The notes beneath the pieces are model-generated. The model worked only from the letters and a program-made list of their open reading frames with translations, was not told the origin of the DNA and searched no databases. A program made the translations under genes and the position numbers. Positions 89 to 57,312 of a stretch of DNA of 64,000 nt are shown here, piece by piece. The stretch comes from Echinostoma caproni. Lineage: Eukaryota; Platyhelminthes; Trematoda; Plagiorchiida; Echinostomatidae. The stretch covers positions 42,173-106,172 of the forward strand of contig UZAN01039451.1 of NCBI GenBank assembly GCA_900618425.1. The letters run 5' to 3'. The first letter of the stretch is position 1. Every line of letters starts with the position of its first letter.

Positions 89-97
89 GCCCAGTTT
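89..97 (-). CDS. Collagen micro-exon 51: Lys-Thr-Gly
   Basis: AAACTGGGC, acceptor tttcag, donor gtgagt. Last exon inside the window; the donor shows that the gene continues to the left. Confidence 0.87.
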
Positions 98-3000
98 CTG
101 AAAGATTCGATGTGTTGGAGGAAGAGATGATGAATGTTAAAGTGCGTACATAGCTGCAAAGTTATCAGAAAGATAAATTTAAAATCTGAAATCTGTTACA
201 CTTGGTTTATAAATTACAGTTAACATATAGAAAGTTATAAAAGGCCACTTCACAAGCACTGATGATGTCACCTCGGCTGGTGATGAAACGTTTGCAAACA
301 AATTGCCAAGCTCGGCGAACAGGAATTCAGTTCACCCGAGCTACGAGAACCGATTTTCAATATTTTGTCAACAGTTATAAATGTGTAGCTGACTGAGCGC
401 AAATGGCTTTGACAGAGATGCTCCCTCGTTATTTTTTGTTTGCTTTTTAAATGAAAAAATACGGATAACATAATTCGTTTATCATGTCATGAAAAATGGT
501 TCGGAAAAATATGTTGTAAACATCATGGGGCAAAATTATGCCGCACAAACATTCATCAGTTACGATGGCGTTTGCTGTGGTGATTATTCACGATTCAAAA
601 TGTTCCATGGCACCAAGGTTTCGGTTCGATCCAACCGACGGGAGCATGAAATAGAAACATCTTCCAGTCTCTTACTTGTTTTCTTAAAAAAACCGATGGA
701 GTGCCAGCAATATTTTCTGACAGATTATTTGAGACATTATTTTGTCCATCCATCCAGTCATATGGATATTGTTGCGAGAAAAGCTCACTTAATTTATTTG
801 GGGAGGTGTGTATAGTGACATTCATCAAATCGAACTCGGGCATCGTGCAAAACTCACTGCCAGGACCTAAAATGTAATTTTGTTCGCACATTTATTTTAA
901 AAAGTCGTATCAGATTGCGTATTGGGCAACAGACGCCGAAATTGATTTAGTTAAATGCAATACGTAGGACGGTGAGTTTCATCGTGTACAAATTGAACGA
1001 AGCGTAAAATGTAAAGACAAAAATAACACTGCACCAATATTCAGAATTTGTTAGATGTAATTGGCGTTGCTTACGTCCAGTGATCCAACTGAAGGATCGA
1101 GCCTGAGACTACACTGGCATACTTCCCATTTGCCGTCCACGCTACTGAACGGATACCAGTTGCATTTTGTCGACACAAGACAGCACCGCTTATGATAGCC
1201 AGGCGGTTAACATAAACTGCTCAACGCTTCTGAGCTTTAAACTTTTAAATGTACCAGTTACTCAAACCAGGTACGAATGGTTTTCAAAGCTTATGGTTAT
1301 TGGTATTCACGTCATCAGAATAATGACAACGGGTTTGTTCTAAATTTGTTGTTTTGCTTTAAATGTTCTCTATGGGACCATTCAGATAATTGTAGTTATT
1401 GTCTAGACATCCGGATATGTTTGGTCACTATTTACCGTATGCTGATCCTTATGCACAGGTCCGTGCGTTTCGCATTACTGCCTATAGTGCATCACACGGC
1501 AATGTGTTCCATGCATGTACCCACCAAAATAACAGATACAACTGAGCAACGTTGAAAAAGGACACAAGAAAACGGGACATTTGGCTTACATCCGGGTTCT
1601 GAAAAATAAGCGGACAAAAGAAAATCACAGATCTCACCAAAGTGCTACCAAAAACCCAACTAGATGAAAGAAGAGTAACACGCAATGCATTCCTAATAGA
1701 ACTAGAAACCAAAGTCTACGTAAAAGGTGCTCCAACAATTACATCCTATCTACTTAAGTTATAGTATAAACTAACTGATAGAACTAATCATACTGTGATA
1801 TATTATCATTGGGCAATTTATTTAATCATCTCAGTGGATAGTTAACCTCTGGTCAAGGGCCTTAAGGATCAATTCAACATGTTTCATTTTCAGTTGCTAT
1901 CAGATAATTTGGATCGAAATAAAAGATTGTATGTATTTGTTTGCGGTCGTGGTTGTGAATATGAATTGCAGTATATGAAAAGATCTGGAACGTGAGATGC
2001 AAGTGGTTAATTGTTAAAAACATTTTAGTTCTAAGGATGGCTTTCAAGCTGATCAAAAGTAACCATAGCCGGGTATGTTTTCTGAATCAATGTTTAAAGA
2101 AACTCACTGCCATCAGCTGTAATGGGCAATGAACAAAACCATATGTTCAAAATAATTGAATTGTAAAAGCTTTTTAGGGAATGGTGGCATTGATAATGTT
2201 GCAAATTTATTCTCAAAAGGCCGCTTTTACGAAAAGAAAAATATCCTTTAAATTTTCGAGCTCCATCTCGCCTAAGCAATGTTTCCTTCACCATAGTTCT
2301 TCATTCCCACGTGGTGAAGTGCAAAAGACTTGACAATTGTGATGTGCTTCACACTGGAAAGTGATATCACAAAGACAGAAATGTTTTCGAAATCCATACA
2401 CCTGAACAATGATTACGAGATTCTGCATGGATAATTGTGTTCCCTAAACGTTATTTGCTTGTTGACTTTCAAAAGACCAATCGAGATGGCCCCATCAAAT
2501 GTTTGCCTACTGGAATCCTGACGTGGAAATTGAAACACTACGTAAAATTGACGGGATCTGTTGCTGTGAGCTCGTGTTCGTACAATGAACACAAATTTGT
2601 CAATTACAGCTGGCGACGAACCGTTTGAAACTAAGTTGTAGACTCGTGGTAACATAAATGCATTTCAGTTTGTTAAATACAAACGAATAGTTCTCCTTAG
2701 TGCTGACTGGCCAAGCATGCCGTTCTCTATAAGAACTTCTATAAGAACAATATTATTCAATAAATACAAGGCAATCAATTATTTTATTTCAATCACAGCT
2801 TTTATACACTAAGACCTAGGAAAAGTAATAAATTCAACTAAGCCTTGAATATTTGGGCTCAGTCACGATGAGCTCAGCCGCATTGAGAAATTTTTGATAA
2901 ATTTACCGTATATTTTTGGATAAACGTGAAGTGAACATAGCATTTAGTGTCTTATATCATTTTGACTAGCCTGTCTTATTACTTTTTCCCGATACGCATC

Positions 3001-6000
3001 ACAACAATCCCGACGACTTACCTCCTTTTACTGTCGTACCCCCGGTGAAAATGTAATTACAAAGATGAATGAATAAAATGATAATTACGCCATTTGATTT
3101 TTAATGCAAGATCTACTTATCAATCACTTTTATAATAGTTTGAAGAAGTAAATCATCTTGAATAACAGTTCCTCCAAGCTAATGCATGTATAGATGTTTT
3201 ACTCAATGTCTGAAAGGGACACATTTATTGTGGTCAAGAAGAGAAAGACTATTCCAATTACTGTTCAAACACTGATAGAGATAATGATGTATGATCTCCT
3301 CTCTCGGTCACTTGTATAAATATTATTCGAATAAATGAGACATGATTCTCAGTAAATCTAAACAGTGTGATAATAAGAATAAACGGCACCCCTTAAACAT
3401 TTTGTATTTCTTTGACTCATTTCCCTTGCTTTGGCATATCCAAATGTATCAAAAATATCAATGTTATTTTTTCATCACATCGAGCACCTCATCACTGCCT
3501 CCCCTAAAGGCATTAATGACTAATATAAGTAAGGAAACCCTGATGGCATTCTTATGGTTGCTGCAACCGTAACAAATAACTTACGTCCAGGAACTTGTTT
3601 AATTATATTTGGGATGTAAAGAAAAGACAAACATATTTGTATTACCAATCAACCGGTTTTCTACTAATGTAAATGAAGTACGTCTAGCGTATGGCGTTCT
3701 GTGGCTTGTAAGTCGTGTGAGCATGTGAACACAGCAAAAAGTGAACAGAAAACAAGCACCATGGCAAACGCTGCACTATTGTTTTTGTCAGTAAAGATCA
3801 GGAAATGATGTTGAATAAGCAGTGTGCAGCTTATAATAAAGTATATCAAAGTCGTATTTCAAAAATAATTTATGAATACTTTATGGATGATCAAGTGATA
3901 GATATTATTTGAAATTGTTTGCCAAATTTCTGGGTGTTGCACGCCTTATCTTACGTCATGAAAATCGATACGATTTGACGTTTCCACGTGATTGATAATT
4001 TTTAAGTACGTCAGTTTAGCTGGCACTGATGCAATCATTCAAACTTACCTCCTGAGCCTGCAAACGACGTGAGGATAAAAATGTGGGTGTGATTAATTTA
4101 CAACTAGGTTTATTTGAAAGTATCTGCACATTTGAATTAAACTCGTCACGTGTCTGAATGAAAATAACTTTTACTCGTTTCTGAACTGTAAGAAAAACAA
4201 CGGTTGTTATCGGATTTTATTCTTTCAAGAACACATCGGCTACCTCGGTGTTTGATGCCTCCTCTCTCATCTGATGCTGCGAGAGTACACCGATAGTTCT
4301 GAAACTACTTTGCATTTGACCATTGAGTCTAATTACTGAAGCAGATGGAAACTAACAGTGTGAGCATGTAAGCCGAATGTTCTCAAATAGCGTTCTCACC
4401 GAATCAACTACATTCAAACATGAAATCTACGGCTTAAGTGAATATCTAAAATTAGTGGTTGTAAACATCGGTCGAGTTACAATAAATTGAATACTTTGTC
4501 GTCCACATTTTGTTGACATAAGTATCATCTTTCACAATTAATCAGTCGAATAACTTACGTCCTGGGACTATATTACATGGAGCGTTTGAGAAGAGAAAAA
4601 TAGTATTTCACATTATGTTGATGAAGTTTGCCTTAACAAAACGAAATCAATACAATACAGTTAAACAACGGTGATTTTGATGAATTGTTTACAAAAGCGA
4701 TTTTAAACGAATTAAATTCTGCTGAATTCATCTTGCTCTATATGAGCTTCCACCAGGTTTCTAAGGGATTAATGATAAGAACGTGTTTTGGTTATCCAAT
4801 ATCTGTATGCTTTCAAGGCTTGAAGTAAGTCATTGAAATATCACGTGACCCAAGTTATCTTAGGACCATCATTAAACTGGGACAATAGCCTCATTGTGTT
4901 TGCCTACGCCAACGTGAATCTCAGAATGAGTTTCGAATGAGCAAGTGGCACGAAAATAAGATGATTGAAAAAATAACTTACCTCCAGCTAGTTTGTTTGC
5001 AAGTGAAACAGAGAAAGAACGGGATTAAAACGTGCTACGGCATAACGAAATAAGTGAGTGCTATCGAAGTGCTTGATTTTCAGTGCCGTGATATCTGCGC
5101 TTGTCTGTTATGCAGCTGTGTATGCCAATTGGAATCGAGTACTATACCTTGCTTGAGATATAGTTCGGTAGGCTTCAAAGAGACACAGTTGCTTCGACTA
5201 TTTGAGTTCACAGATCTCAGTATTAATTATTGTGTGTATGTGTGCATTCGCATCGAAGGGGTCAAGAAAAAAAAGACGGAAATGGAAATGGGTTCGGGGT
5301 AGTTTGCGAGATGAACCAGCATACTATGCCTTAGGAATGCGAACAAAAATCTGTCTGTCAAAACTGCTAACGGAATCCCAGCGAGTTAGGGTTGACGAGT
5401 GGACGAATCAAAAATTGCAAGGGGGTTCTTGTGTCTGTTGTCTACTGAAACGAATAGGATTCCTTCTCGCAGAAGTGTGCTCCCGGTGATTGTTCTCTGG
5501 TAAAAAGAATGTGTTCTCCCTTAACTTTGCGTGCGATCACAGAACGAGATAGTACTTTGACAAAAAGTATACATTGTTGTTTCTTCGAGAAAACAGAGGA
5601 GAGTGAGTAAAGTAAACCGTCTTACTTTTACTCCCATATTCCAAACATTAGCGCAATATTTTTCTCAATAACACGCTGGACATTTCTATTCTACATGTGG
5701 TAACTGCCTTCATGGTAAGGTCACTATTGAAAAGTTGAAATAGCTCAAAAAGACTCAAGTGTTATGAATGCGACAAACGTGAATATGCTTCAACCTAGAA
5801 CCTGTAGGAAGTGCAAGATTTTTCCACTGAAATAACTTTCTTATTCTCATTATGACAGGACTGCTTTCTCTGTGTTTTAACAGACACCTAATATGGTTTG
5901 AATCTATGCAATGGCAGCACTTCCCACAACGAGTGAAACAACTGCATAGTGGGTTATGNGGGTTATGGTAAACGATTGGCGGAAGTCAGTTGGTTTGCCC

Positions 6001-9000
6001 ATTTGGTGTTTGTTGTAGGAAACATTTAAACAGAGATGATAGAATAAACACTTTATAGATGAGTGCTACGAGTGCCATCACAGCAGACACGAATGAACTT
6101 AGTAAACAGAAAGGTTTGGTTTTTGTGACGAGCTGGGTCGTTCTCCGAAGGGAGGCTGTTCAAAAACCAAACTAGTAGTTCTAATCTGCTTGGCGCTTTT
6201 GAATTCGCCTGGAATGAGATTTGAGCCCATTAGTTGCAGAACTAATTCAAAAGGTCGTTTCAATCAGAGTCTAGTAGAGTNCCTCCGCGTGCTAAAAAAA
6301 CGGTAGAAAAGGCTCATTCAAAAACTTGCAGAAGAGAAAAGCAGATTCAATTTACTAACTGAAAATAGGATTTCCCAGAAATCCAGGTCTGCTAATATCT
6401 TAGATAATAATTCTCAGTATGGTGTGAGCGTGTATGGAGGAAATATGCAGAGCGGCACGACCATCTATCTGGCGATAAAAGGGATAGTATTCCATCATCC
6501 CTGGATCAATTCTAAGTTAGGTTGATGGATTCGCTTTGGTGATGAGACCATACCAAGTGTACAGTGCTTTCAGTTCTCGCTTTATTTGCTTTGTCCATGA
6601 TGAAATTTCCCAGAACATATGTAACCGCTTATGCAGTAGCTTCAAAATATCGCATCAGGTGTAGTTACAATGATTTCAGTTTCCAGTTAACTAGATCAAC
6701 CAATGCATGCATAATGCGGAGGTCGGGGTAAGGAGGCCTGGAATTGTAAACTCTGCTTGCAACATATGGCGACACGCTGTATAACATTAATTTGAAAATG
6801 TTATTTTCTGATCCATAAACCTTGAGCACCTCTGCTAAGGGCAGCGCGTGAGGCAAGAACGGTGAATAAATCCTAGCCCAACCACAGTTATTATCTTGCA
6901 ATTCAACTTACGGCCAGGTGCTGGAATACAACGCATTGTAAAGAGTTGGATTCATTATTCACATTTCAATCAAATATGTTTACCTCATTATATTAAACCA
7001 TATATTCTATTATTAGTTCGGATTAGTATTTTCTCATGTAAAACCAGTGAATAACGCAATAACGTAGGAGTTGAGTAAACGATATTGTGGCAGAAATGGG
7101 TAACAAGCGACCGGCTAAAAATGAAAATAGCACGTGAGTAACAGAGTAATGATTTGGTATATTAAATCGCTTCGAACTGTTTTCCACTCTTCTATTTTCA
7201 GTCCAAACATTGGATAAACAATGCTATGCAAATGACACATGTTTTGAGCAATAAATCATTCCATGGTCTTCATGTGTGTAGAATTTCATCATATTGCCTC
7301 CGTGGAAAGCACGGAAATTGATAATGGATTAACAAACGAAATCGTCGGCTGATTAAAGCCTATTACGTTAGGTATACAATAGGGGATGGTGATTAGTGTT
7401 AAGGAGCGGTGTCAACTCCCTTGGATCCTACACTGCTAAGAAACTAATCACACGTTCCGATTGTCCGTTGCAGTTTGCCGTCCAGTCAGGCCCTTGAACT
7501 TAATGTCTACATTTGATTGAACCAAGTTGGTACAACTTATTCGGGGATGTTCGAAATAGCGGTTTTACAGGTCATTTATATCAGCTGCATGCATCTGAAT
7601 GTTTCTCGGGTTATATGCTTTGATCTCTGTCGGGGAGAGTAGAAGGGTAATGGATGCACTGTGCGTAACAGATGCTGTACGAAATTCACTCTTTGGGTCA
7701 CGAACCAGCCGTTGGTTATCGTCGTAAGAAGGGTTTTCTGCTGATCAGTTGTTTGGATAGCGAGACAAAGAAACAGCAGTTTGTTATACTGTACTAACTT
7801 CATGGTAGGTGGTCTCTGTCATTTCGATACTGGAAATCTATGCTTTATTAGTGTCTAAATTATTGTTTTGTAAATAAACATTTATTTCAGGAAATGACTC
7901 AAATAGTGATGATTTCGATAGAATCATTAGCATGCTTTGGTCGTTAACATTTGAATTTCTTGAAACTTACGTTATACAAATGACTTTACCATTGATTTTG
8001 ATACACAGCGAACCTTTTGTCTGTTTTCCTAACTGATAAACTTTTCGCATATGATGGTATGACGCTGGTACAGAACTTCACAGGGCGTTTTGCACTAATC
8101 CAAGAATTTTTTCGTGGATTTTGGATGCTTGGACCGGCATCGCGGCGTCTACCACACGTTTGACGTTTCAGTCTGACAAACACATCCGTAAATAATTGGT
8201 AAAATAATTTATTCCAGGTTGCCAAGATTTCTGATTTCAGTTTATCAGTGTATTGCCATCAATTTATTGTGGACATTCCGATTTCCTGGGTAATCTACAA
8301 ACATGGGACATGCGATAACTCCATTCTAATTACCATATATTTTTTCAAATATGTTCACCTGCTAAAATCGTTTTGCCTTTTTATGATATTATTTTCAACA
8401 CTGGTGGTAAATTATTTGCTAATTGAATTCTGCCGATTCAAAAAAATAAGTTGGTTGTATACTGAGAGTTCCATAGATCAAAACTCTCGTTGCCAATGTA
8501 ATGATAAATGCTTTTAAAGTGATTTAATTTGCTTTTCTGCGGATTTCCCTTATTTGCTTTTGTTCAACAAAGACCGCACGCGCAGCACTGCTTATTCAGA
8601 TATGTTCTGTAGCATCCATGATGTCCATCCCCTGCATGAGGTGTTAGTATAGACTCTCTTATGCTTGAGATTAAAAGGAATGGAAAAGGTTGACACTGAC
8701 ATTGTTTGACCATTGTTGTTGTCAAACATGCTCTGATATGAAATTAGGAAAGTGTGTGCAAAGCATTACTGTTTTCTATTCTTATTTCAAAAATTTTAGA
8801 TTGAAGCACATATCACCATATACCTACATGAGTGAAGTTTGATGCCTAGGAATTCTACACAATTGAATGCACTTTCGTAATTTGCTTGCAGCTTTTGTTT
8901 CTAACGGGAACATATCAAGAGATGGGATTGGAAAAATTAAACACACCAGGTTTCACACCGGAAACTAAATGGTGCAAGAAAGGATCTGTCTGAAACTTGG

Positions 9001-12000
9001 AAATGAATGAAAACTGGCTGTCCACGACCGGTCCTTGAATCAAACTCCCATTTTTTCCTACTGGCGCATTCTGCTGAAATTCTGTGTTGATCAAAAACAA
9101 GCATTCCATACGGTACATATTATGTATCAGGGGTTCGCTAATTACTATTAGATCTTTTTATACGCAATACGTTTCAAAAGTAAAATACATTACACGAGAA
9201 ATGAGTGACTCACGTCCTCGAGCTGTAGGGAAGAACAAGGTTCAATTTTAAATTTGCTCTGCAAGCTATCGAGTGTGACCAAAGAAACTACCTGACGGCT
9301 GCACACAGAAACACAGCTGGCAAATTCATGATCGCTAAAATTATGATTTGGAAGACGTACATCATAATAAATGACAATCTAAAGCTGTTGCTGGTTCGTT
9401 TTGGTAATTTTCTTGGACAACAGATCTTATCCCGCATCAATATCTGGTATATGTTAGTGAAAATTATATAAAAACCTAACAACAATCTTAGATCTTTGGT
9501 AATAATTGGTATCTGTTTTCTTGAAACCCTACTGTCTGTAAGATTTTTTGATTGGATAGAGGACGTTGCAAAGATCAGTTACGTGTTCTCAAAACTTACG
9601 TCCAGGTACTGAAACGTAAATAGTTCCGTGGATGAAAAAGTTTATGCATTATTCAGATTTAAATTGCAGTTACTTGTGATAATTGGCGTTAATTTGAACT
9701 GAAAATCCTCGTTGTTACGGTGGCAACACACACCTTCCACGCGGTATGTTGAAAGCTTTGACGGGACCTTAAATATGCACTATCAACAGGCTCTAATAAG
9801 AGCAAAACTCGATTATAGATTGTGTTTGGTGGTCTGCGAGAGCTGAGGATTATGCATGAACGTGCAGTTCGAAGGATTGTTTGTGCAAATCAACGAGCAG
9901 TTTTCAATCAATGTGACCACTGTTTGACTTAGAGTCGAGTGACTAAGCGGATTGCATCAAATTGTTCAAAATTATGTATGCAAAAATGATCTGAAACTGG
10001 TAGTAGTTTATTTACAAATACAGGTATATTAATTCAGGTTTACTCACATCCTTCTGTTGATTGATCACAAGTTTTACATGAAAAGAAAACAAGTATTCAA
10101 TGAGTATCACTTATACACAAAATACATAATTTATTCAGCCTTTTGACTTCTTGGAAACACTATTGCCCAATATGAATGCCCTTTGATTGTGAGTCAAAAG
10201 TTAGGCAAAATTAGTGGATTCCACAGGAGTTTGTTCTAGGAATATCATTCAATTGATTCATCAACAGATAGGATGAAAACGTTTGTGACGGTGTTCTGCA
10301 AACTTTGAAGTTTGAATTTTCACCAGCAACAACACCATTTCGATCGAGCTCAAAAGGACATAAAAAAGCACATTAGGGCACCATCTTTTATGGAAGGCTT
10401 ACCTCCNACTGAAAAAGAGACAGAATACAGGTTAGTTCATCTCGGTGCACTTAAACGTGCATGATACAATTTACAAAATAATTAATTTTAGCATCGCTAG
10501 TAACAGTTTCTACATCTTTAACTTCTTCTGATGCATTCACTTAACCTTTCACAAAATGACTGTGCAAAATGACTACATGTGTCCCATACAGTTGGTTTTG
10601 GATACAGAGTGCATCAAAATTCACCTTCATCTGAATGATTCCTTTACCAAATGGAGAACAGTTCATCCTACTACCTCAACCTATAAATAAACTGAACTAA
10701 ACGTCAGGTTCATTTTGCACAAATGTATTCATCATTCTCAATAGTGAGTGGTTAATTGTGGCATCCATAACCTCGAACTGTCATTCCTTGCAGGCATGTA
10801 TTTTATAACTTCACTAGAATGGTTCCCCGGAACTGTAGAAGACTGTTCTCCGTCTGCGGAATAAATCTGTTTCAGTTATTGTCCCTTTTGTGAAATGATG
10901 CTCAATCGTTTAACCACTAGCATCGTTATGGTAAAGAATACATAAAAGTTTTCGTCTGTTTGCTCTGTTTATTGTGTGATAACCACTCTTATCATCTAAT
11001 ATGGGAGTAAGAGAAAAATTGAACAATGCTACGGATTTCGATAGGACTGTAATGTATAAAATAGAGGCATGTGCACTAGAAGAGATGAGATACATAAGAT
11101 TCCTCGTTAATTACGTTTCGCTTCTCACTTAGATCTATTCACTCACACATTACGCAGCTCCCAACGAATTTGGTTGTAGACTACCTACAGGATTAAGTCC
11201 ATTGGTTAAACTTTTCGATCAATATTGCTTCCAGAAACTGCCCTCCTCAACAAGCAAAACCTATCCGGAGAGTTTATCTAACTAGCACAATTTATTAATA
11301 TGCAGATCCAAAATAACTAGCTTCCAAAGGACGGCATGTGATGGATTCCTTGCACATCATACAAGTTTCAGAAACATTGATCTGGGAACATGAGATAAAA
11401 AATTCAAGCAGTGCGTTGAAATAATTATTCAAGTTTACTATACACTCCTCCTTTAAACACGCGTTCCGGTTCTCAGATTTACTTATTTTTTCCGGTGCGT
11501 GACTATTGTTTGGTGAAGATTTCGGTTGTGTAGTATGATATGTGCGATGCATGATGCAAAATTTTATGATTGCGTTTGTTACGTAGGGCTATGTAATTGC
11601 GAGCTAAAGGCTGCGATTTAATGATTCATGCATCTCTTGTGACTTACTTCCGGGAGCTAAATGAATAAATAACGAACGTTAAAGGATGGTTAGGTTTATG
11701 TGGTATTATGCGGGTATTTTCCAACAATCCAAATAATTAGGTTGTGTTTTGGTAGTGGGGTATTCGGAAACTTACGGCCAGGAGCTGTAAGCAAAAACGC
11801 AAGTTACCTAAGTTAAATTGGATTCGATTGCGTAGGTTAGAGTTTCCAAGTGCAAATCAAGTCAGCGTCTTCCGAAGATGTGTATCTTATTAAATCGTTA
11901 GAAATGCTTTGTTTTATTGGTTATTTCAATAAACTGATTGTGTTCTACACATCGGTGACTTACGTCCAGCAACTAAAATGCACAGAATGTTTGTTTTCGA

Positions 12001-24000: not shown

Positions 24001-27000
24001 TGATTCCAGTCTTGTCATATGAGACAGAAGCAGACAAATGCCCACGAAGTATCTGAAATAAACTTACGACCGCGGACTGAATTAGAATAATTCAGGGAGA
24101 AAACCAGAAGTTTCGTGAGGAAATGTGAAAGCAACTTCTACCAAACGACGAATTATTATGGCACAAAAACTTGGCAAACTTTTCTATTAACTGACAAATA
24201 AATGATAAAATTTTGCAATATTTGATGTGTAAAATATTCAAACACTTACGTCCAACTTTTTTGATAAAGAAAATGCAATGGCAAACGTTTCAAATTATGC
24301 GAGTCAGGACGTCAATTGATTTTATATAACTCTGAATTTCAAACTGAAATTATTACTCATTGTTTGTTCCTCAATTTGTAAGATTATATTATGGCACAGT
24401 CTATTATCTATTGTAACTGCAATGCTAAACAATTGATCACCCCAAATATAGCCACATATTGACAGCATATTATACCTAGCCTAGTTACAGACCAATATAA
24501 TACAGCACGTAATTTCACAAGCACCTATCACGTATCAATAGACTTTACTTGGTCAGCAGTATACCTGTTTTGTGATTCCGGCAGAATTCCTTGCGTATAC
24601 ATGTTTGCTAGGTTCTCGGATTTTCCGAAAAATAGATTTCATCCATCGTGTTTTTCGTTTCACAGAGTATTTAAACTTAATTTGACAATCGCTTATGAGC
24701 GTTAGTCATGAATCACGGACCGATTGCGGATATAAGAGACAAAATGTTTTTGAATTTCGATACAATTTAGAGGTTATTAGAAAGAAAATATTCATAAATT
24801 TGTTTGATATAAAACTTACCACCGGGAGCTTAAAACCATAGAGTGCGTAGATAAGTAAAAAGATTTTAGTTCACTGTATTTAGGCAACATCGTAGGGTAT
24901 AATTAGACCGGAAGTGTTAAACACATGATCTTTTATAACTGATCAGCTTATTCCTTATCCACATTTGGTAAACTGCAGAAAAGAGCAGATAAATCTTGTA
25001 ACCTGATACAACTACGCTGAACTTCAGAAATAGGCATGGCTTCATGTTTTTCATACTTCTGAGTTTTCACCCTAAAATACTTATGGTATTTTTAAAAATT
25101 CGTTTGACTTTAAAATAAAGTTACAAAGCAATCAATAGGGCGCCATGGAGAGGTGAAGTATGGATGTTCTATGAGGGTGTATATGGACGTAGTGCTCGTA
25201 GACTGGCTTCAAAGAAAAAAGTGCTATCTGCATTAATATCATCATTTTCGATTTATTAGTGCCATTTTGGACGTAATCCGGGACTTCAAATGCCAAGGTT
25301 CTTTACTTCATTTTTTGGATAAAAGCGACATACAATATTGATAGGTATATTAGGTTGTTCCGCACTTATATTATTTCTCGCAGCCCTAATAATTATAGTA
25401 AGGTCTGAATATTTTGATCGCAATAGGTAGTAATTCGCCATACCTCTTTCTTTTTAAGAGAAACAATTAGAAGGGAGCAAGAACGTTTGCGATGACTCTT
25501 CTACTGGCTAATACACAAATTATTTAGTAGGGGAGGACATCATAACAAAGTGAAAAAGAAATAGTGAACAGTCCAGTTCCATGACCGGATTGTGTTCACA
25601 ACTTGGTCCTCCCCATGTGCACTGGTATGAGCAGCATCCAGTCTTGGAACTGGAATATTGATTATTTTTATTCCACTCTGTCATGCTTTCTCCCCCTCCT
25701 ACTTATCAGCTTAATATAAAATTTGATATATTAGCCTCCAGAAAAATCACCTCATATGAGCTTGTCCACTACTGTGTGTTTTTATTACAATGCGCAGTGA
25801 TGGTATTTTCAGACGGACCTCTCAATATGCGTGCCCTGATTAGGCAGTTCCTTATTTGTTTCGAATTGTAATCTGGTATACTTCAGTTTTTCATCTTATA
25901 CGGTAATGAACAGGTTCAGATAATTTCGCGGGTAATAGCACTGAATTGAAAAAACCTCAGAATCCACTTCCTCGTTATTGTTTTGGAACGGTAGTTCTCG
26001 GAGGAATTTTAGTTAAAATGAAATCCTTGTTTCCAGAGAAGTGCATTTGGAAAATGTCAACTGAAGGAGATTGCTTGTTTAAATCAAACTTCTCCTTTAC
26101 ATTCTTTGTATAACTTACGTCCAGCAGCTAAAAAGTTATGGAATCAGCAGATGATCGAAAGTTACAGGAGCTGTTATCCGGGTTACTGTAAATCATACAT
26201 TTTAGTTACGGTTGACTGATTTCCAAAGAACCACCAAGCGCACTGCAAGGACGTTGCTGAACCGATCATTAGATTCAGTCAGTAGATGTGTCTAAAACTG
26301 GTTCACAAAAACTATTCACTCTACTGCTGTTTAATCCAATTTATTATTTCGCTTTAAACAAAGTTCATTACTTTGCGGGACGTAATCAATAGTAGGACAT
26401 TGAGATGAGTCTGGTAAACTGCTTTTATTCACAATTCCAAACCTGGTAGGAATAAGCTAACTCTGGGAGGTTTTGCTCTAGTTTAGTAACTATTCAATTT
26501 TACAACAACACAAACAACAGGACGGACGATGCGAGAAACGCAAAATTATCACAAAGGTATGGATTTGCAGGTATTCAGAAAGGTAACTCCATAATGTGCG
26601 CATAATCTTCTCATCTAATTTTTTTAATCCTGGATTTGGTTTATATTACAGCTTCTCTGTTTGCAACAGTTATCATCAACGAGGGTACAGACACATTTCA
26701 GTGTTCCACAACAGATGCCGTTGTTTGTGATCACGTAAAGGGTCTATGTTTCTCGTGAGCAAACGTACAATAACATTAGGCTTAGGAGGACGCCATGGAA
26801 ATAGAAGATTTCTATATGCAATTGTAGGGAGATGCGGCCAGAATAAATACCGCATTCAATTGATCTTGCACAAAACTTGAGCTTAGAACTTACGGCCACG
26901 TTCTGAAATCAAGAATGCATGATGATTAATTACAGCAGTCTGTTACCATGTTTTCAGTAGATGTATACAAAAACCAAAACACTTTATGAACTGTTATTTC

Positions 27001-30000
27001 AGTGATTCATTTTTCACAAATACATACACCTTCGAATCTGTTGGAAGAACTTACCACCATTGGCTGGAGAGGGGAGGGAAATTGTATGCATTTAGAGAGG
27101 TCGTGGTGGAGTTTAATGACGAAACAACTAATACGCACACTCAAGTCACATCCGCTGTATCTATACTCAGCCTTCATTGATAAAGCCCATCAAGTGTGGT
27201 ATCCGAATTCACTGCTTATCAGTTTCTCAAGTAGTTTCTCAAGTAGAAACTGATCTTGATCTGGTGCATTAAAACTTTGACGAAAATGAATAGAAACAGA
27301 TGTGGTCTACGTCCGAACATAGATGTTTTATGCACATTAAATGACTTGGATACACTAACTGTTTTGTAAATGCAACTGTAACTTCGTCCCTGATAAACTC
27401 ATTTTTATAATTTGCGTTATCGAACGTTGGTGCGAAATTATGATTTCTACAATTCTTCACTCACGTCCTATACTGGCTTTCTGTTAACTAGACTGATTTA
27501 CCTAAGTTGACCCAAAACATAATTCGCCTCCATCCGTCTGCTATCCTGGTATTTGTTTTCATAAAAAGATATCCACATTAATTTAGAACAATTCATTAAA
27601 AACATTTTGTCCGCCTACATATTCTGTTCGTTCGAGATTTACCACGGCAGAGCGAACAAAATAAAATTGCAAAAACGCTCGTTTGCAGTTATTCGTAATT
27701 ATGCCAATATGTAATAATATCACCAATCAAGAACAAAGGAAAAAAATACACTAGGATTGATTTGATTAGCAGACCCAAGATCAGAATAATAAGGGTAACA
27801 TAGTTGTTTATTCACCACTCCTGGTATTGAGACTCCAGTAGTTGAGTTGTTTGTGAGGTGTGGTGTGAGGCTTAAGCGCTTAGAGGAATGTAGAAGAGGT
27901 TGTACCGAACAATACTGCCGTGGCACGTGACATATAACAGTCAATCTGCCTTGATAATCGACAAAGAAAGTAACTTATAAATGACGACGAAAACACATTC
28001 TCTTTCACAGTATCAGTTGTTTCATCTAAGTTTGAAGTCACTACTTTTATGAGTGACTTCATCGTTCTGGTGTTTATCCATGAGTCCATTTGAACAATCA
28101 AATTATTGTGCATTTTAACTTATATGCGTTTTCATTATTCTTGCATGATTACGAATCAACTATCCGATCCTTGTGTTCCCAATATCTTCTAGGGAACGAT
28201 TTAGATAAAGTAGAGAAGCTACTGTGAGTTGACACAAGATTTTCGGCTGATGATGATTTTATATTAAATATATTAATAATATTATGATATCCTACATTAG
28301 ATATTTCATTCTTCGGAATAAATATGCTCAATCCCGCAGAGATTTTAAAACTCATAATGACTAGTATCACAAGTGTTAAGTTACATTGCAAGAAGAAATT
28401 TCACGATGCCACTGCAGATTTAGCCGAGCATGCGATTTGCTTCTAATTTATTAGTTTATGTCAAAAAACAGATACAGTTTAATCATTTAAAGTTTACTCA
28501 CCTCCAGCGCCTTATACGCAGATTCGGATTTGAGGAAAACAAGCAAAATACACAAAATCAGATCGCAAAGGGAAATTAACATCTTACACCACAATGTTAC
28601 TTATGATACAATTTGTATACAAAGCGCTTTCTGACATACTGTTTTTCTTACATGCGTTGTTATTTATTTATTAAAAATAGGTTAAATATAAACTAAAGTT
28701 GGATCATCATAAACGGTGAAAATCAACTGTGTTACGCTGAGTTTGCTGGACAGTGTTGTTATTGTGGCTTCATAGATATTTCCGGTATGATGAAGGTAAC
28801 TTACATCCACGTGCTGGACGCAACAAATGAAGGAAAAGCATTCGGAAGATATCGCAATTATGGATAGACAGGTGAATCTATGCAAATGAACAGCCTCATT
28901 TGAGCAGAGTAAATGACCAACTACTGTTGCTTCTATTTTAAAAATACGTAAATATGCTGGATATGTGTCTTGCATAGACAAACTGAGTTCCACACGAAAC
29001 AAATGTCTCATACAAATTAAGTGTATTTCATTGAGTCATCCTTTTTCAAAGTTTTGCTGTTGTGATGTGTAATAAACTCCCTTGTCTGAGATAAATAAAA
29101 GAAACGTTAGATTTTTAGGTAGACGTACTTGTTGTGTAATCCTAATTATAATGGTTACTATCACTCCAAATAGAAAGAACCAAAAAGGAGACTTTGATAT
29201 TTCCTTTTTTACTGTACGTTTTAGGTTTTACTAGTGTGACACAACGGACTCTTAGGAGGGGATCACAAACTAAATGCAATCACAAACTTACGACCAGGTT
29301 CTACAAGAGAACAGACAAAAACATTAGTTGCAACGTCGAGCTATTTAATAGAGCTATTTGAGATCAATTAAGTTAAAACGAGGTGAAAACAGGAAATGCA
29401 GAAGTTCAGACTTCCTACGAATCAAAATCGTGATAACCTTATTTCTAGCAATATTCAACCGTGGGTTTATCTAACCTACTGGTTTATTACGCTTCTATTT
29501 GGTTACCACTTTCACAGGTCTAACTCTACATTGTCCGTGAATTTGGAACTTGATTTATCAATAAACTTCATTTCCTCGAGCTTTAGAAAAAATAATGTGT
29601 AAGAAGGTACGGTGATTTGCACAGCAATATCCTGATCACATTTTTTTCAATATCCTTAATTATGCTATTTAAAAGATTCTTATGGGGAGGGCATAATCAG
29701 TGGTTGGTCAGATGATCTACATGATCCAGAACATGAGCAACCATCGCATTCATTTTGGAAAGCGACACGTCCACTATCTCAAACATGAGGTTGCAACTCA
29801 ACAGACTGGCTAAGACAATGAAATCTCGCATGATTTGATCAGCTCTATAATTCGGCTGTAACGTTGATTTCAACTGCTAGCCGGATCGGTATAGCGAAAT
29901 ATTTCTCACGAAAGTACTATCCTGGAAGAGTTTTGATCAATCACATTGTTTGTTAATTAATGTTGTTTTATTCACAGATCAGGTTTGTACTAACCTCCGA

Positions 30001-33000
30001 CACCTAAATGCATTTACAATATTAGGAGAGACAAAACAATAATAATTTTAATAAAAAAACGAGCCTTCTTTTTTCATAAAACATTTTTATTCTAAAGAAT
30101 CAATAATCTGAAAGTGTTTTTCGGTTACATTCTCACATAGGATTTATAGTATTTTCAGTCTATTTTACTACGTTCTCCGAACCATTCTCGTTCTGATATG
30201 CTCACCGCGTCTTCTTCTCCCGTAAGATATATGTGCTAAATTTTTATCACGTGGTGCATACAATAATGTACTTGTGCTATCTATCAAACCGCGTTGCCCA
30301 TCGCTTGTGTCTACTGTCAGGCATATTGAATATAGGAGTAAATAGCATTTAATGCAGTATGGTCTCGGATTCAACCAGCAATCAAACCAGCCATAATCAT
30401 CTCCTAATCGTCTTGGCTGCCACACTATTTTGTTTTCAGTCCTAACGAAGATGTACACACACTGTGATACCCAGGCCTTAGGACTCTTTGCTAATATATT
30501 GGAAACAAAGCACAACTGTTTCAGGAACTTAAAACATTTCAGCCGCTAGGGGGTTGAACGATAGGGACCGTCACCTCACTGTTCAGTGATTTATGTATTT
30601 GAATCACTGTCATAGCTCTTTTAAATCCCGCTCACACTTGTAACCTCCCATTGTTCATGACCGTTCAACTGAATTCTGACTGTAAATTTACCGAATATCA
30701 AATAAATAAAATCTGAAGATTATTTTAGGTAAATAAATCATTATTTTTTTTGTTATACTTTTTTCCATCGGGTGGGCAAACCATTTTCAGATAAATGTAG
30801 TACATTGTGTCTGATAGAAATAGTTTATTCGTTTAAATTCCGCAAATCACACAAAAACCTATAACTCACATCCGGGTGCTTAATAAAGAAAAGGCAGAAG
30901 GAAGATCATTCGAAAATTTAATTAATTACCCTCCAATCAGTGCGTTCGCGTGAAAAGAATACTTACTCAAATGTTTTTACTCTCCCGCCCCTCAAAATGA
31001 ACTGCGTGAAAATCTGGTGGGCATTACAGTGTTCTGCTCTTATTTTACATCATTGTTACTTCACAATTGTTATTATCAACAGATTGATACAATGACTTTG
31101 ACTACAGGCACCCGGGAATAGTTCTCATTATTCGTCTTCTATGAAGCATGTTTTTCACCTGAATCAGAGGCTGACTTTTTATTAGCCCTTTAATATTGGT
31201 TCTGAAAACAAGATCATATATAACATGAAATTTTGAAACTTACGACCGGGTTCTGCGAAATAATAACGAGCAATAACATTGATTATGCAAATGAAGAGTT
31301 TTGACACCCAACATCAAACACAGCATATTACATCATCGAAACATTTTCCGTGTAGGTACTTTTAAATATCCCTTTTTTAAAATTATCGCGCGTGCTAAGA
31401 ACAACGATAAGTGAATTCTCGCAAATCTTTTCAAAATTAAAATATCTGTTACGTATTTTTGTCACATATATACAGATATGTGGTGGATATTTAATCTTCA
31501 AATTACGTGTGGTAGAATCCAAATGGAAAGCAGTGAATGTGACACCCACACTTTGAGTGTACATGCAATCCTTGAAGTATATCCTCACATGTAACCAGTA
31601 AGATTACTTCAGAGGTCATGGACTGTCACTCAAAAGGTTTTCTTATTCATCTATTCCATAGTTCGGGAAACCCTTAATACCCGTGTCGTAATTTGTTGCG
31701 CATTTCAGTCACTTTACATTGCGCACAACTAAGAGTTTTATCATAGTTTCACTTAGGAATCATATTACACTGACCAAAGCACCAGAATACATGATACTGT
31801 TTCCTACATGGCTTGATTTTTAGATAATTCATCGACTGACCAGAAATCAAGTTGAACGGCAAATCTATTAGCATTGAGTTTGAACTCTCCAATGTAAGTG
31901 AACTAGAAACAAACGCGTCTATTTTCATGGAATTTAACATTAGCATAATGACATTTTCAACAAACAGTGACAACGGATCCATGAATTCGGATTCTATTAC
32001 TATCTGAGTATTCATAGCTTGTGCGTTACGGAAAACAAATTTCCAATATGATAAATTATATGTACTTACTTCCGGGACCTAGGTTCATCGATGAGTTTCG
32101 TAGAGAGAGAGAGTAAAATGTATACAATTAAGAGATGTAAGTGATAGTTCGGTTGACCGGAGTCCAAAAGATGCACAACCCCTCCGTTTATTCACCATAA
32201 ATTTTATGAATGGATTTCGATACACATTTTCAGCATGGTCATCGTTTGCCATCGCATTAAGTATACACACGTGCAGAATAATTTCATTGGGTTAGATGCA
32301 AGCAAGCCTTTGCTAACCAGAGCGATTTACTGTCGATTGTGTTCAATCGATCTACTGCTCAACCTAGCTTCAAGAACCAAATAGATTCTGTCAGTAATAG
32401 CTCAAATACACTCAAAATAACTCACATCCACGGGCTGTATATATCAAGTGATGGAGAGGAATAGTGTCAGTATTGGTTAGTTATTAATCGTGAATGCACT
32501 AAATATGCCATAAATTAATTTTTACTTCCATTACAGAGACGCTGCTGACTTTGTTAGACATGTTTTATCTCATTGTACAAAAGAACCAGAGAAAGATTAT
32601 TTAAATATGAAACTGGAAAGCCGGTAGCAGAATGTGACAAATTGCTGGTCACTGTAAGATCCATGATCTAAATTACCTTACCGCACGAATAAAATAAACA
32701 ATGCGTTTGGAGCCCTTAATCTACGTTTAAAATATGGCAAATGTACCACGACAGCTAAATGGGCGTCAAGCTGTACAGGCATAGTCAGTCGAATTGACTC
32801 TCTGGAATAATTTATTATTTGGAATTTCCTGATCCTAAATAAATTTGTTTAGTAATTTCTTTCAGTTATCATTAGATCCCACCCATAATTTCGGTATTTT
32901 TCTGCCGGTTTTCGCCAATCTATTATAAATAATCCACGGACCTGAACATCACAAGCTGGTTATAACCTGAATGGCTTTCAAAACTTACGGCCAGGTGCTG

Positions 33001-36000
33001 TGAGCGCAAAATAATATCAAGTTTTGTGTTAGAAAGCAATGCTTTGTTTATATTACTTTTTGCGTTTTTCACTAAATACTACAACAAAACAGGTACGACT
33101 AACCGTTAATCTTTCTGTTTCATATTTTTTTATCACTACTGTCTGACAAACTAAGATAAGCGGCGGCATTTCAGGAACTGGATAGGTTGCAACTTAGTCT
33201 TCATTTTGGATGCCGTAAAGAACGTGATAGTCTAATGATTTGAAATCTGAAATACTGTACACCTGAAAATAGTTTTTTTTGTTTGGAGATATAAGTTATT
33301 ATGTTTATGGGATGAGGCTACCAGAATTTTCATTCCACCCAGAAATAGACTTTACGGTTTATTCCAAGGAAAGGTGGTTCCTAAATAAATGTGATTCCTT
33401 GAGGCTGCACCTAAATTAGGTCTAATAAGCATTTAACAAAAATATTTCATATCAAAATGCATTTGACTGAGAACCTGCAAGGAAGTATGGTCATACTTAA
33501 TGAAGAAAAACTTCTAAATGGATGCCATGGTTGAGATGAATAATCTATTCATGTCAGATAATATTTATTAACTCCGTTGACTGAATAATGCTGCTTCTTC
33601 AATTTGATCAGATAACTGTTGAAATACATGACAGAAGTTGCATACGACGGCTGAAACAAACGTTTTCCGGATACGCATTAATCGACGAGTACAAGGTGCA
33701 GATGACCGGATAAGAAAAACCTAAAACCGCAATCGATTGTGAATATTTTAAGTGATTGCAACTCACAGAACCAAGTGTCAACAGCCGAGCACAACTCACA
33801 AGTCACAAGGGTTGCTATGCTTGGACTGTAAGGATGGAACTCAGTGGATGTTACTGGAGAGTGATGAATTTCTGCTACCAAAAATGTGGTTTAAAGCAAC
33901 AGCGGCAGCAGCAGAGTATTGATCGTTTACGACCTGCCTTTGGAGAGGAGGTGCCTTAAAGAAGCACTTTTTTGAATCGTTTACGGAGTTCAAGAGTAAC
34001 AGGTCATCCTTGGATGTTGAGATACGGCGCGGTTGACCTGTGGAGGCCACAACAGCGGGCAACATTGGTCCTGTGCAAGCGATGGTGGAGTAAATGTGCA
34101 GGTGACCGTAGCCCAGTTGTCCAATACCATCGGTATATATCCGCACAGTCACCGGTGATTGTTACACCTGCCACAGTATGCCAAAATTGCCGGAAGCTGT
34201 CACGAAGCTTCATCCAACGACTCGAGCACGAGGGACCTTTCTGCACCTTCAAAACTCACCTGCACACAGGTCGGCGATTTTATGGCTGGAGATCGCAAAG
34301 AGGAGGTTGGTCACCTATAGTCCAGACCTGGTTCTGTGTGACTTTTATGTTCTCAAGCGCACGATGAGTGGAGTCTGATGCAAGTCTCCAAAAGCCGCAG
34401 TGGCGGTCTTCACTGAACTAATCGAAGGGTTATTTACTTTGACATAGTCGAGCTCTTTCACCAGATTGCCTCAGCGTATGGAACTGTGCATGGACGCTGG
34501 TGGAGAATACTGTGTGAAAATATAATGCTCATTTTTGTGTAACAAACAAAACTTTTTGTTTAAATGCGGAAACGTTTTGTTCAGTCTTCCATACAATATG
34601 TGATCTGGTCCAACACCGGTTGTGAGACGTGAAATATATCAAGGGTGTACACAGTTTGGATACACTCACCTCCAATACCTTGATCAAAATTTTCGGTAGG
34701 AAAGCAAAGAAACACCGAGATTATAACAATTTTTCAAGATTCCATTTGACTATAAGTTATCTGCAGTACGAATATCGTTGACATACAATTGCTTTATGCA
34801 TCCTCAACCTTCCCATGTTATCTGATCCCACCCCATACAATTAGGACGATCAGTGGAGTTTAATTATTAATGCTTTATCGATTGCTTGCCTCAGATTTCT
34901 TTGCAGATATTCGAATATTTCGAAAATTATTTTGAAGCCTGTACCTTGTATTGAAATTACATAAGGACTATCCACCATGATTCTTTTCAATTCTTCCCAA
35001 AACAAAATTGCACTGAATTTGGGTACCTCACAATTCGGCGCGGAAATTGCTACTACGTCCGTGATCAGGATATATTTCCTTGATCAGTATTCAGTGACTC
35101 AGATCCTCTCATCCACTAGTTATCTCCACATGTTTTACCAGTAAACCTACAATTTGACCTACCTCTTCCACTAAACATCATTTGGTATCATTTTATCACA
35201 AGCATCTCTTTGATTATGAGTTCCGAGTAAAACAGACTTAATTATATTTATTTTCTCATTACTGTCGCCTAACTTTTGTATCCAAAAGATAGCTCTGTGT
35301 TTTGAAATGTTCATTCTTTAAATAATGTCTATTTTTTCTGAGTTCGAAAAGACCTGTGGTATGATATGATGTGATCCCGATGAAAAAGTTGAAAAATCCA
35401 CTCCCAATAACTTACATGCTCCTTTAGGACCTGGATCACAATTGTGCATTTTGAGAGAAAACCGGAACTATATTGGGAATGAAAACTGTGATCCACTATA
35501 TAGAAAGACTTTTAACCTTAATAACAACCGAGTTGAAACCCTGAATGTCAGTGTAGATATGCGCAAGGTGCATTGCCTTCAATAAACTCGCAAGGGAGGA
35601 TTGTGCTATATGGGGCAGAGTTGGTAAAATGCGTGCTTTCGGTCTGTAAGTTCCCGGCTTCGATCCCCAGTTAGATGGATCGATTTGCTCTGCTGATGAG
35701 ACCCAACCGTTTCAAAACAACTGTTCAGTGCTTCCGAGATTTTCACTTCACTTTTAGTTTGCTCTTTACACGATGAACTTTAACAACATGGACAAACCAA
35801 ATCTTCCATTTCTTTCATCTAATGAGTCTGAAGGTTTCATCTTGACTTCTCATTATGACTCTCTTCTCTAAATGATCCCATCATTAACAAAAATAAGTTA
35901 CCAACAAACAGTTACTATAATGACAGTATTCCTTTCTATCACACTTTTATTGCTCTTCACTTTATATCACCAACGAATTGTACAACTTTTGATATCAGGA

Positions 36001-42064: not shown

Positions 42065-42073
42065 GTTTATATA
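42065..42073 (-). promoter_or_regulatory. TATA box of the collagen-like gene
   Basis: Minus-strand TATATAAAC lies about 60 bp upstream of the ATG at 42005. Transcription would then start near 42035-42045, giving a short 5' UTR of roughly 30-40 nt. Inferred from sequence and spacing only. Confidence 0.55.
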
Positions 42074-51179: not shown

Positions 51180-51224
51180 GCACTGCTGATGAGTCCCAAA
51201 TAGGACGAAGAAGCTGTCCAATGC
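51180..51224 (+). ncRNA. Hammerhead ribozyme in SINE copy
   Basis: Stem I strand GCACTG, core CTGATGAG, stem II TCC/GGA with loop, core CGAAG, then GTC (cleavage site) and CAATGC, which pairs with GCACTG with one mismatch. The third core strand has G instead of A after GAA, so activity is doubtful. It matches the schistosome Sm-alpha hammerhead in layout, including CTGATGAGTCCCAAATAGGA. Upstream flank gtcctgacagg is shared with the other copies. Confidence 0.75.
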
Positions 51225-51457: not shown

Positions 51458-51502
51458 GCACGGGACCGCTGTTTCGTCCTGTTTGGGACTCGTCAGCAGT
51501 GC
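51458..51502 (-). ncRNA. Hammerhead ribozyme in SINE copy, minus strand
   Basis: GCACTG, CTGACGAG, stem II GTCC/GGAC, GAAA, GGTC and CCGTGC. All conserved core positions (CUGANGA, GAAA, NUH) are present. Stem III is very short, as in other flatworm copies. Its tRNA-like head lies at about 51530-51590 on the same strand. Confidence 0.8.
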
Positions 51503-51636: not shown

Positions 51637-51681
51637 GCACTACTGACGAGTCCCAAACGGGACGAAACAGCTGTCCCGTGC
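51637..51681 (+). ncRNA. Hammerhead ribozyme in SINE copy
   Basis: GCACTA, CTGACGAG, stem II with loop, CGAAAC, CTGTC and CCGTGC. The core is intact; the last two pairs of stem I next to the core are mismatched. It is an inverted neighbour of the copy at 51458-51502. Confidence 0.78.
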
Positions 51682-57267: not shown

Positions 57268-57312
57268 GCACTGCTGACGAATCCCAAACAGGACGAAACA
57301 GCTGTCCACGGC
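57268..57312 (+). ncRNA. Hammerhead ribozyme in SINE copy
   Basis: GCACTG, CTGACGAA, TCC/GGA, CGAAAC, GTC, then CACGGC. The first stem II base after the core is A opposite C, and stem I pairing is reduced, so it is probably weak or inactive. Flank gagtcctgacaggcacac is shared with the 51180 copy. Confidence 0.7.

Follow-up and report, generated by a model that had tools for sequence, protein, structure and literature searches.

Can a collagen triple helix be encoded one Gly-X-Y triplet per exon? This question is raised by the minus strand of a 64,000-nucleotide stretch of Echinostoma caproni DNA (hereafter the window; bases 42173-106172 of contig C508, in a genome of 426.5 Mb and 12,689 contigs), in which an original prediction had proposed an array of exons only 9 or 6 nt long. 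The locus is best explained as a micro-exon type of gene that codes for a secreted, collagen-like protein chain, and we give this reading a probability of about 0.92. Under it, the gene would be transcribed, all units would be spliced into one mRNA, and the chain would form a triple helix and be secreted.

An array of 9-nt and 6-nt units on one strand

A first scan searched for AG followed by N5-GG-N2 and by G(T/C), with the donor matching GTRAGT at five or more of the six places. Within window positions 1-35000 it returned 42 units on the minus strand and none on the plus strand, and within positions 35001-64000 none on the minus strand and one on the plus strand. The 42.2 kb of C508 preceding the window held a further 39 units on the minus strand and none on the plus strand; in the 30 kb after the window there were none and one, respectively. 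When 136 kb were scanned by splice score and glycine was not required, 94 9-nt candidates were found on the gene strand versus 13 on the other strand, and 22 6-nt candidates versus 10, every remaining length from 2 to 60 giving 5-20 candidates on the gene strand. With a stricter score, 91 units (81 with Gly) were left on the gene strand and 8 (2 with Gly) on the other. Since the splice matrix had been trained on Gly-bearing units, the scan was repeated over the array region with the bare consensus YAG-9nt-GTRAG. This yielded 64 units on the gene strand versus 2 on the other, and GG was present at offset 5 in 63 of the 64 but in neither of the 2; other lengths between 3 and 30 gave 0-10 units. 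Lengths of 7, 8, 10 and 11 showed no excess in either Gly-independent scan. The 9-nt array is not a chance pattern.

In all, the array on C508 extends over about 65 kb and numbers 93 exons, of which 84 are 9 nt and 9 are 6 nt long, in a region with only 28 N among 65,200 bases. Accepted micro-exons were restricted to lengths divisible by three, and all 93 array exons were selected for Gly. Of the 9-nt exons, 43 lie within the window and 41 outside it; for the 6-nt exons these numbers are 7 and 2, and the last unit found is at -30131 to -30123. The array therefore does not stop at position 89, originally given as its limit, but continues as far as window coordinate -30131 (C508 12041). All seven proposed 6-nt exons were retained, but only 43 of the 44 proposed 9-nt exons passed: the unit at 10672-10680 was dropped because its Y codon is a stop and its donor is weak. 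The Gly codon occupies the same place in all accepted window exons, as had been predicted, and Pro, Arg or Lys precedes it in 32 of the 43 triplets (33 of 44 before that unit was dropped). The accepted exons of the window are the following:

34670-34678, minus strand, 9-nt collagen exon, I-Gly, score 18.4
32989-32997, minus strand, 9-nt collagen exon, P-Gly
32426-32434, minus strand, 9-nt collagen exon, R-Gly
32070-32078, minus strand, 9-nt collagen exon, P-Gly
31244-31252, minus strand, 9-nt collagen exon, P-Gly
30870-30878, minus strand, 9-nt collagen exon, P-Gly
29995-30003, minus strand, 9-nt collagen exon, V-Gly, weaker donor GTTAGT
29292-29300, minus strand, 9-nt collagen exon, P-Gly
28805-28813, minus strand, 9-nt collagen exon, R-Gly
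28502-28510, minus strand, 9-nt collagen exon, A-Gly
27055-27063, minus strand, 9-nt collagen exon, N-Gly
26894-26902, minus strand, 9-nt collagen exon, R-Gly
26119-26127, minus strand, 9-nt collagen exon, A-Gly
24820-24828, minus strand, 9-nt collagen exon, P-Gly
24250-24255, minus strand, 6-nt exon, X-Gly
24068-24076, minus strand, 9-nt collagen exon, R-Gly
23150-23158, minus strand, 9-nt collagen exon, P-Gly
22937-22945, minus strand, 9-nt collagen exon, P-Gly
21536-21541, minus strand, 6-nt exon, X-Gly
21142-21150, minus strand, 9-nt collagen exon, R-Gly
20675-20683, minus strand, 9-nt collagen exon, A-Gly
20160-20168, minus strand, 9-nt collagen exon, P-Gly
19297-19305, minus strand, 9-nt collagen exon, P-Gly, GC donor, weak score 14.1
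18319-18327, minus strand, 9-nt collagen exon, R-Gly
17803-17811, minus strand, 9-nt collagen exon, P-Gly
16840-16848, minus strand, 9-nt collagen exon, P-Gly
16323-16328, minus strand, 6-nt exon, X-Gly
15678-15686, minus strand, 9-nt collagen exon, P-Gly
15058-15066, minus strand, 9-nt collagen exon, P-Gly
14433-14441, minus strand, 9-nt collagen exon, P-Gly
13736-13744, minus strand, 9-nt collagen exon, Q-Gly
13478-13486, minus strand, 9-nt collagen exon, P-Gly
12619-12624, minus strand, 6-nt exon, X-Gly
11964-11972, minus strand, 9-nt collagen exon, A-Gly
11776-11784, minus strand, 9-nt collagen exon, P-Gly
11648-11656, minus strand, 9-nt collagen exon, P-Gly
10403-10408, minus strand, 6-nt exon, X-Gly, one N inside
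10048-10053, minus strand, 6-nt exon, X-Gly, weaker score 15.3
9600-9608, minus strand, 9-nt collagen exon, P-Gly
9214-9222, minus strand, 9-nt collagen exon, R-Gly
6912-6920, minus strand, 9-nt collagen exon, P-Gly
4982-4987, minus strand, 6-nt exon, X-Gly
4559-4567, minus strand, 9-nt collagen exon, P-Gly
4049-4057, minus strand, 9-nt collagen exon, S-Gly
3585-3593, minus strand, 9-nt collagen exon, P-Gly
3022-3030, minus strand, 9-nt collagen exon, K-Gly
2108-2116, minus strand, 9-nt collagen exon, D-Gly
1590-1598, minus strand, 9-nt collagen exon, P-Gly
858-866, minus strand, 9-nt collagen exon, P-Gly
89-97, minus strand, 9-nt collagen exon, T-Gly; the array goes on outside the window on C508

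Within each 9-nt exon the Y codon and the Gly codon are complete, and two X codons are present in part, the preceding one with its final two bases and the following one with its initial base. The X codon is split in this way, unlike in the complete-codon exons, mostly of 54 bp, of fibrillar collagen. The Y residue is Pro in 46 of the 84 exons and Arg in 13, whereas Pro appears in only 9-16 of 84 when the same exons are read at offsets 0, 1 and 3; at X, counting the 6-nt exons too, 23 of the 90 junctions form Pro. The 6-nt exons code for X-Gly only, leaving nine one-residue Gly-X-Gly interruptions along the helix. Hence the helix is not strictly uninterrupted, and the earlier description of an uninterrupted collagen sequence was too strong.

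Split codons and the order of reading

In an mRNA that joins neighbouring exons, one codon would be assembled from the final base of an exon and the opening bases of its successor, which are separated by hundreds of bases in the genome. The junctions were compared with 5000 shuffles of exon order; C508 offers 90 of them, two that touch an N being omitted. Mutual information between the last base and the next first base was 0.252, versus a shuffled mean of 0.080 (reached by 3 of 5000 shuffles), and Pro plus Ala were formed at X 38 times versus 28.4 (reached by none). No stop codon arose at the 90 junctions, where 1.6 were expected, although 814 of the 5000 shuffles were also free of stops. With seven contigs pooled, a set that is not independent because these contigs are mutually related, mutual information was 0.249 versus 0.038, Pro plus Ala reached 74 versus 59.3, and there were no stops at 180 junctions (2.9 expected; none in 197 of 5000 shuffles). 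As controls on C508, reversed reading (lag -1) and pairing with the fourth unit along (lag 4) gave mutual information of 0.089 and 0.097, respectively (p 0.33 in both cases). A base correlation that spans introns in genomic order, together with the absence of stops, makes the exons look consecutively read.

Gene model and predicted product

Upstream of the array the following features were placed on the minus strand:

42066-42073, minus strand, TATA-like box TATATAAA, lying 68 bases upstream of the ATG
41945-42005, minus strand, exon 1, coding part of 61 nt, phase 1, signal peptide MGYLAFCLFVAIISLSFVPG, donor score only 5.5
40616-40627, minus strand, probable 12-nt micro-exon, splice score 25.0; the related contigs C5137 and C7938 also carry a 12-nt exon before the array
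38735-38743, minus strand, probable 9-nt micro-exon without Gly, score 26.7
37412-37420, minus strand, probable 9-nt micro-exon with Cys, score 23.4
35416-35430, minus strand, probable 15-nt micro-exon GPKGA, score 24.4

The 61-nt signal exon, judged by hydropathy only, has a hydrophobic stretch on C508, C5137 and C7938, and on the latter two contigs a TATAAAT lies about 52 bases upstream of the ATG. Exon 1 and the array are probably separated by four additional tiny exons (12, 9, 9 and 15 nt), which contribute GTSK-SVD-KCP-GPKGA with one Cys; they were chosen by judgement among similarly scoring candidates and are less certain than the array. Other candidates ahead of the array or inside it that scored as well as the kept exons were left out for lack of support: one of 18 nt or 3 nt near 36605-36620, one of 45 nt at 37706 and one of 54 nt at 33853.

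The whole model spans 72 kb, and its 98 exons add up to 916 coding bases. Its micro-exons of 6, 9, 12 or 15 nt, all in phase 1, account for 97 of the 98 exons, and its 97 introns range from 108 to 2293 bases (median 636). Motif enrichment in the introns pointed to branch-point-like words and pyrimidine tracts on the upstream side of the exons, and to words rich in A/T with a mild TTGCA excess on the downstream side; no special regulator is claimed. The Pfam Collagen family (PF01391, cut-off 27.2 bits) matched the first 139 residues of the C508 chain with 44.5 bits, no single stretch passing alone, and the C5137 chain with 68.6 bits, scores that are partly expected because the exons had been chosen for Gly. 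Ordinary long-frame collagens are present in the same genome (134 PF01391 matches from 150 scored of 227 candidates), and therefore this organism does not encode all its collagens in tiny exons; none of the 134 lies on C508 or on the six related contigs. A search with an ordinary collagen exon yielded no match at a threshold of 1e-20, one with a retroelement piece yielded six relatives, and one for COX1 was empty.

Related loci in the genome

The pattern YAGNNCCNGGNNGTAAGT matched the genome 58 times, and the same pattern reversed, used as control, 3 times. The matches fell on C508 (20), C5137 (10), C6505 (8), C9296 (6), C8943 (4), C7334 (2), C7938 (2) and six contigs with one each. All contigs with matches were examined at least in part, and the 9-nt units of the six related contigs bore Gly as follows:

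C5137: 29 of 32 on the gene strand, 0 of 1 on the other strand
C6505: 22 of 22 on the gene strand, 0 of 0 on the other strand
C7334: 7 of 11 on the gene strand, 0 of 2 on the other strand
C7938: 10 of 11 on the gene strand, 0 of 1 on the other strand
C8943: 9 of 9 on the gene strand, 0 of 1 on the other strand
C9296: 18 of 19 on the gene strand, 0 of 1 on the other strand

The unit counts of C5137 and C7334 are lower bounds, as long N runs also occur inside these contigs. Among the single-match contigs, C685 had 3 of 4 and C11781 2 of 5 Gly-bearing units, and the remaining four had 0 or 1 per strand. C685 and C11781 each carry another apparent micro-exon gene: C685 (L033), at contig positions 27711-33891, has four Gly/Ala-rich exons, one of 15 nt and three of 12 nt, including an identical pair, and C11781 (L031), at 1603-5465 on the minus strand, has 9-, 12- and 30-nt exons.

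Overlaps at 70 to 91% identity mark C5137, C6505 and C8943 as distinct loci; C7938 overlaps C5137, and the C7334/C9296 type is more distant. Together these alignments give at least four related loci, and some contigs may be parts of one gene. The order on C5137 is the 61-nt signal exon MSSYILSAVTWLVLFSCFVQ, a 12-nt exon, a Cys-bearing 9-nt exon, 29 collagen exons and an 18-nt exon; the 5' part of C7938 is the same, and the exons of the related contigs, compared by eye, stand in matching order. Candidate terminal exons before a stop were found on C6505 (SPNSTCSGSLFTPCF) and C8943 (SPNPTCSGSLFTPCF), and perhaps on C9296 too.

Conservation was assessed by lifting exons between contigs through blastn alignment. 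The partner was also an exon in 15 of 20 cases for C5137-C6505, 9 of 10 for C5137-C7938, 8 of 9 for both C5137-C8943 and C6505-C8943, 4 of 4 for C5137-C9296, 9 of 9 for C6505-C9296 and 1 of 1 for C7938-C7334; no exon could be lifted by blastn for C7938-C9296 or C508-C5137. The eight units lifted onto non-exon sequence (5 of 20 from C5137 to C6505, and one each for C5137-C7938, C5137-C8943 and C6505-C8943) all have an in-order partner by eye and were taken as mis-lifts, and the C6505 exon at 5640 has no partner in C5137. Pairing by order is weak for the distant contigs C6505-C9296 and C7938-C7334 (flank identities of 0.60-0.64, one of 0.70, near noise), so the blastn-lifted pairs were used there; the GG identity of 1.00 in order-based pairing is circular, because exons had been called by GG.

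In the six pairs with at least four lifted exons, splice sites were 86.5-97.5% identical versus 63.5-85.6% for introns, while whole exons, at 63 to 83%, stayed at about the intron level. Splice sites and Gly are conserved, and X and Y are not. Between C5137 and C6505, the middle base of the X codon was identical in 9 of 20 pairs, with flanking introns 80% identical, and nine differences in Y codons change the amino acid and one does not. This suggests diversification of X and Y.

Internal repeats were not detected in the C508 array at the settings used. On C9296 (L029), a 410-bp stretch containing one exon occurs twice (4156-4565 and 6741-7150). The two copies differ at 2 bases only, both within the 9-nt exon (TACCTGGAT versus TACTTGGAG); the chance of two random changes both landing in the exon is about (9/410) squared = 0.0005, and an assembly effect behind the repeat is possible. 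On C5137, two neighbouring exons are 80% identical over 74 bases. Both cases fit growth by duplication of exon plus intron. C5137 (L019) also holds, at about 5420-6290, a 438-bp tandem repeat of 100% identity that is free of exons and is either real or an assembly effect. A short stretch at 248-321 of the window is common to C508, C5137 and C6505 (85-89%) and adjoins an open frame in L021 (7538-8212) with a marginal GIY-YIG match (22.7 bits, cut-off 22.6), which we take to be perhaps a Penelope-like element.

Weighing of the explanations

The proposed gene would begin with a TATA-like box and a 61-nt signal-peptide exon, continue with a small number of tiny exons, among them one with Cys, and go on to the array of 84 9-nt and nine 6-nt exons. 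Ordinary splice sites, with strong GTRAGT donors and pyrimidine-rich acceptors, would join them in genomic order, each 9-nt exon supplying one X-Y-Gly step in phase 1. As all units are symmetric and in the same phase, gain, loss or skipping of any unit keeps the reading frame, and gain or loss of a 9-nt unit would also leave Gly in register. Repeated duplication of an exon together with its intron is the probable way in which the gene grew. The central claim of the original prediction, one collagen triplet per exon, is upheld by the single register, by the split-codon correlation in genomic order and by the related contigs with their conserved splice sites.

Several results weigh against this explanation. 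Phe, Trp, Tyr, Cys, His, Met and Ile, which had been expected to be rarer at X, together occurred there 9 times versus 5.7 in shuffled orders on C508 (17 versus 14.7 in the pooled contigs). A correlation on C508 was also seen at lag 2 (0.209, p 0.002), though with 4 stops, and weakly at lag 3 (0.144, p 0.07), though with 2 stops; the lag 2 signal is unexplained and regional composition may be its cause. When the first 60 residues were used in a database search, none of five candidates reached E <=0.001, in a database whose coverage of animals is uncertain. The 61-nt signal exon was not found in the searched part of C7334. The 18-nt exon of C6505 carries a stop, and the matching stretch of C5137 reads differently; some copies may thus be decaying. 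Nor was a 3' end found for the C508 gene, an acceptor scan of the tail giving 10 sites, none convincing; of the 12041 bases past the last unit, 9478 are N, so the terminal exon may simply be hidden.

The alternative that survives best concerns the same gene, with its units used mainly as cassette exons, so that cell- or tissue-specific subsets would give many chains of differing length and sequence, an idea already put forward for the micro-exon genes of schistosomes. Any subset of the array exons keeps the frame, as they are symmetric and in one phase, and micro-exon genes are described as alternatively spliced in passages of PMC10526429 and PMC4350168. The split codons, however, are tuned to the next neighbour (on C508, Pro plus Ala 38 at lag 1 versus 29 at lag 2, stops 0 versus 4), and hence the usual product appears to join neighbours. 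We regard predominant cassette use as a real prospect, but the lesser one. Alternative splicing of the units, and selection as the driver of X and Y diversification, are more speculative parts of the picture.

It is very improbable that the locus is a relic, that is, a once-working gene now decaying or no longer transcribed. The stop in the C6505 18-nt exon and the one C508 unit with a GC donor and weak score would agree with decay, but stops are absent from the 90 C508 junctions, Gly is in register in 63 of 64 units chosen without regard to it, and splice sites are conserved above introns across the related contigs; all 93 accepted exons have Gly as well, although they were selected for it. 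Finally, short motifs do arise by chance and the first reading was made without tools, but a chance pattern or scan artefact is refuted by the near-empty opposite strand of the array region (0 units with GG, 2 without), by the lack of a clear excess at lengths except 9 and 6, and by the same plan on six other contigs.

Other features in the window

Four type I hammerhead ribozymes scored over the Rfam cut-off, at 51180-51224, 51637-51681 and 57269-57312 on the plus strand and at 51458-51502 on the minus strand. Type I hammerheads have a link to flatworms, and along with the micro-exon genes they would suggest a flatworm origin. An open frame at 44812-45303 on the minus strand resembles a retroelement integrase by eye and had no Pfam match at 0.001.

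Comparison with known genes and significance

Micro-exon genes are described, in passages of PMC10526429, PMC4671649 and PMC4350168, as having a signal peptide in the 5' exon, short and mostly symmetric exons, long introns and alternative splicing. According to part of PMC10526429, Schistosoma mansoni has 35 such genes, with 10-20 short exons, mostly of 15 bp, whose products have few conserved motifs. The C508 gene shares with the schistosome genes, as portrayed in sections of PMC4671649 and PMC10526429, the signal peptide in the 5' exon, the tiny central exons divisible by three and the long introns; the schistosome genes also have a longer terminal exon, and the C508 end may lie in N. Unlike those of S. 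mansoni, it has 93 exons of 9 or 6 nt that code for one strict repeat, the collagen triplet. Its modelled coding sequence lies mostly in exons below about 36 bp, their lengths are divisible by three and a 5' signal exon is present, with the 3' end missing. The predicted architecture is that of a micro-exon gene and the predicted product a collagen. The word 'collagen' is absent from the main text of PMC10526429 and PMC4350168. Accelerated evolution is reported, in a portion of PMC4350168, for schistosome host-interface genes, micro-exon genes being among those studied.

The helix exons of fibrillar collagens consist of whole triplets, most commonly of 54 bp, and their skipping keeps frame and register, as stated in part of PMC9320522. 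The 9-nt exons of C508 are likewise a whole number of triplets in length, but the unit is 9 nt rather than mostly 54, and the X codon is split where the fibrillar genes have mostly complete codons. Fibrillar collagens carry a C-terminal COLFI domain, and collagen IV has short interruptions of the triplets and an NC1 domain. In passages of PMC5395295, split codons at exon borders are described for collagen IV, those of glycine, and the collagen IV genes of Mnemiopsis have exons from 40 bp up. The C508 gene resembles collagen IV in its split codons at exon borders and in its short breaks of the triplet pattern, but differs in that the X codon is split and the exons are of 9 nt. Cnidarian minicollagens are short-chain collagens with cysteines at both ends and a gene structure unlike that of C508; the likeness would lie in a short triple helix that is preceded by Cys and, in the candidates on C8943 and C6505, also followed by Cys. 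By such analogies, the product would most likely be a secreted short collagen with Cys links at one or both ends and a structural or host-facing role.

No description of 9-nt collagen exons stood among the open-access papers listed; one may exist elsewhere. With 916 coding bases in 98 modelled exons over 72 kb, the gene would represent an extreme in the fine cutting of a coding sequence. A length of 9 nt presumably falls short of what exon definition requires, and the gene is therefore a natural test of the spliceosome on dozens of successive tiny exons. We consider it possible, though doubtful, that this is a family of secreted collagens in which each Gly-X-Y triplet is its own splicing cassette, giving many helix lengths and triplet choices with the frame preserved, and in which X and Y outpace the introns while Gly and the splice sites do not change; such a modular and rapidly evolving collagen might have the collagen receptors of the host as its target. 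The locus is also of interest for the long-standing view that a small exon unit was amplified as collagen genes grew. Reportedly, Yamada et al. (1980, cited in PMC5395295) proposed that a collagen gene was assembled by amplifying a DNA segment that contains a 54-bp exon; here the unit would be a single triplet, and the apparent recent duplication of a unit on C9296 is relevant to the same idea.

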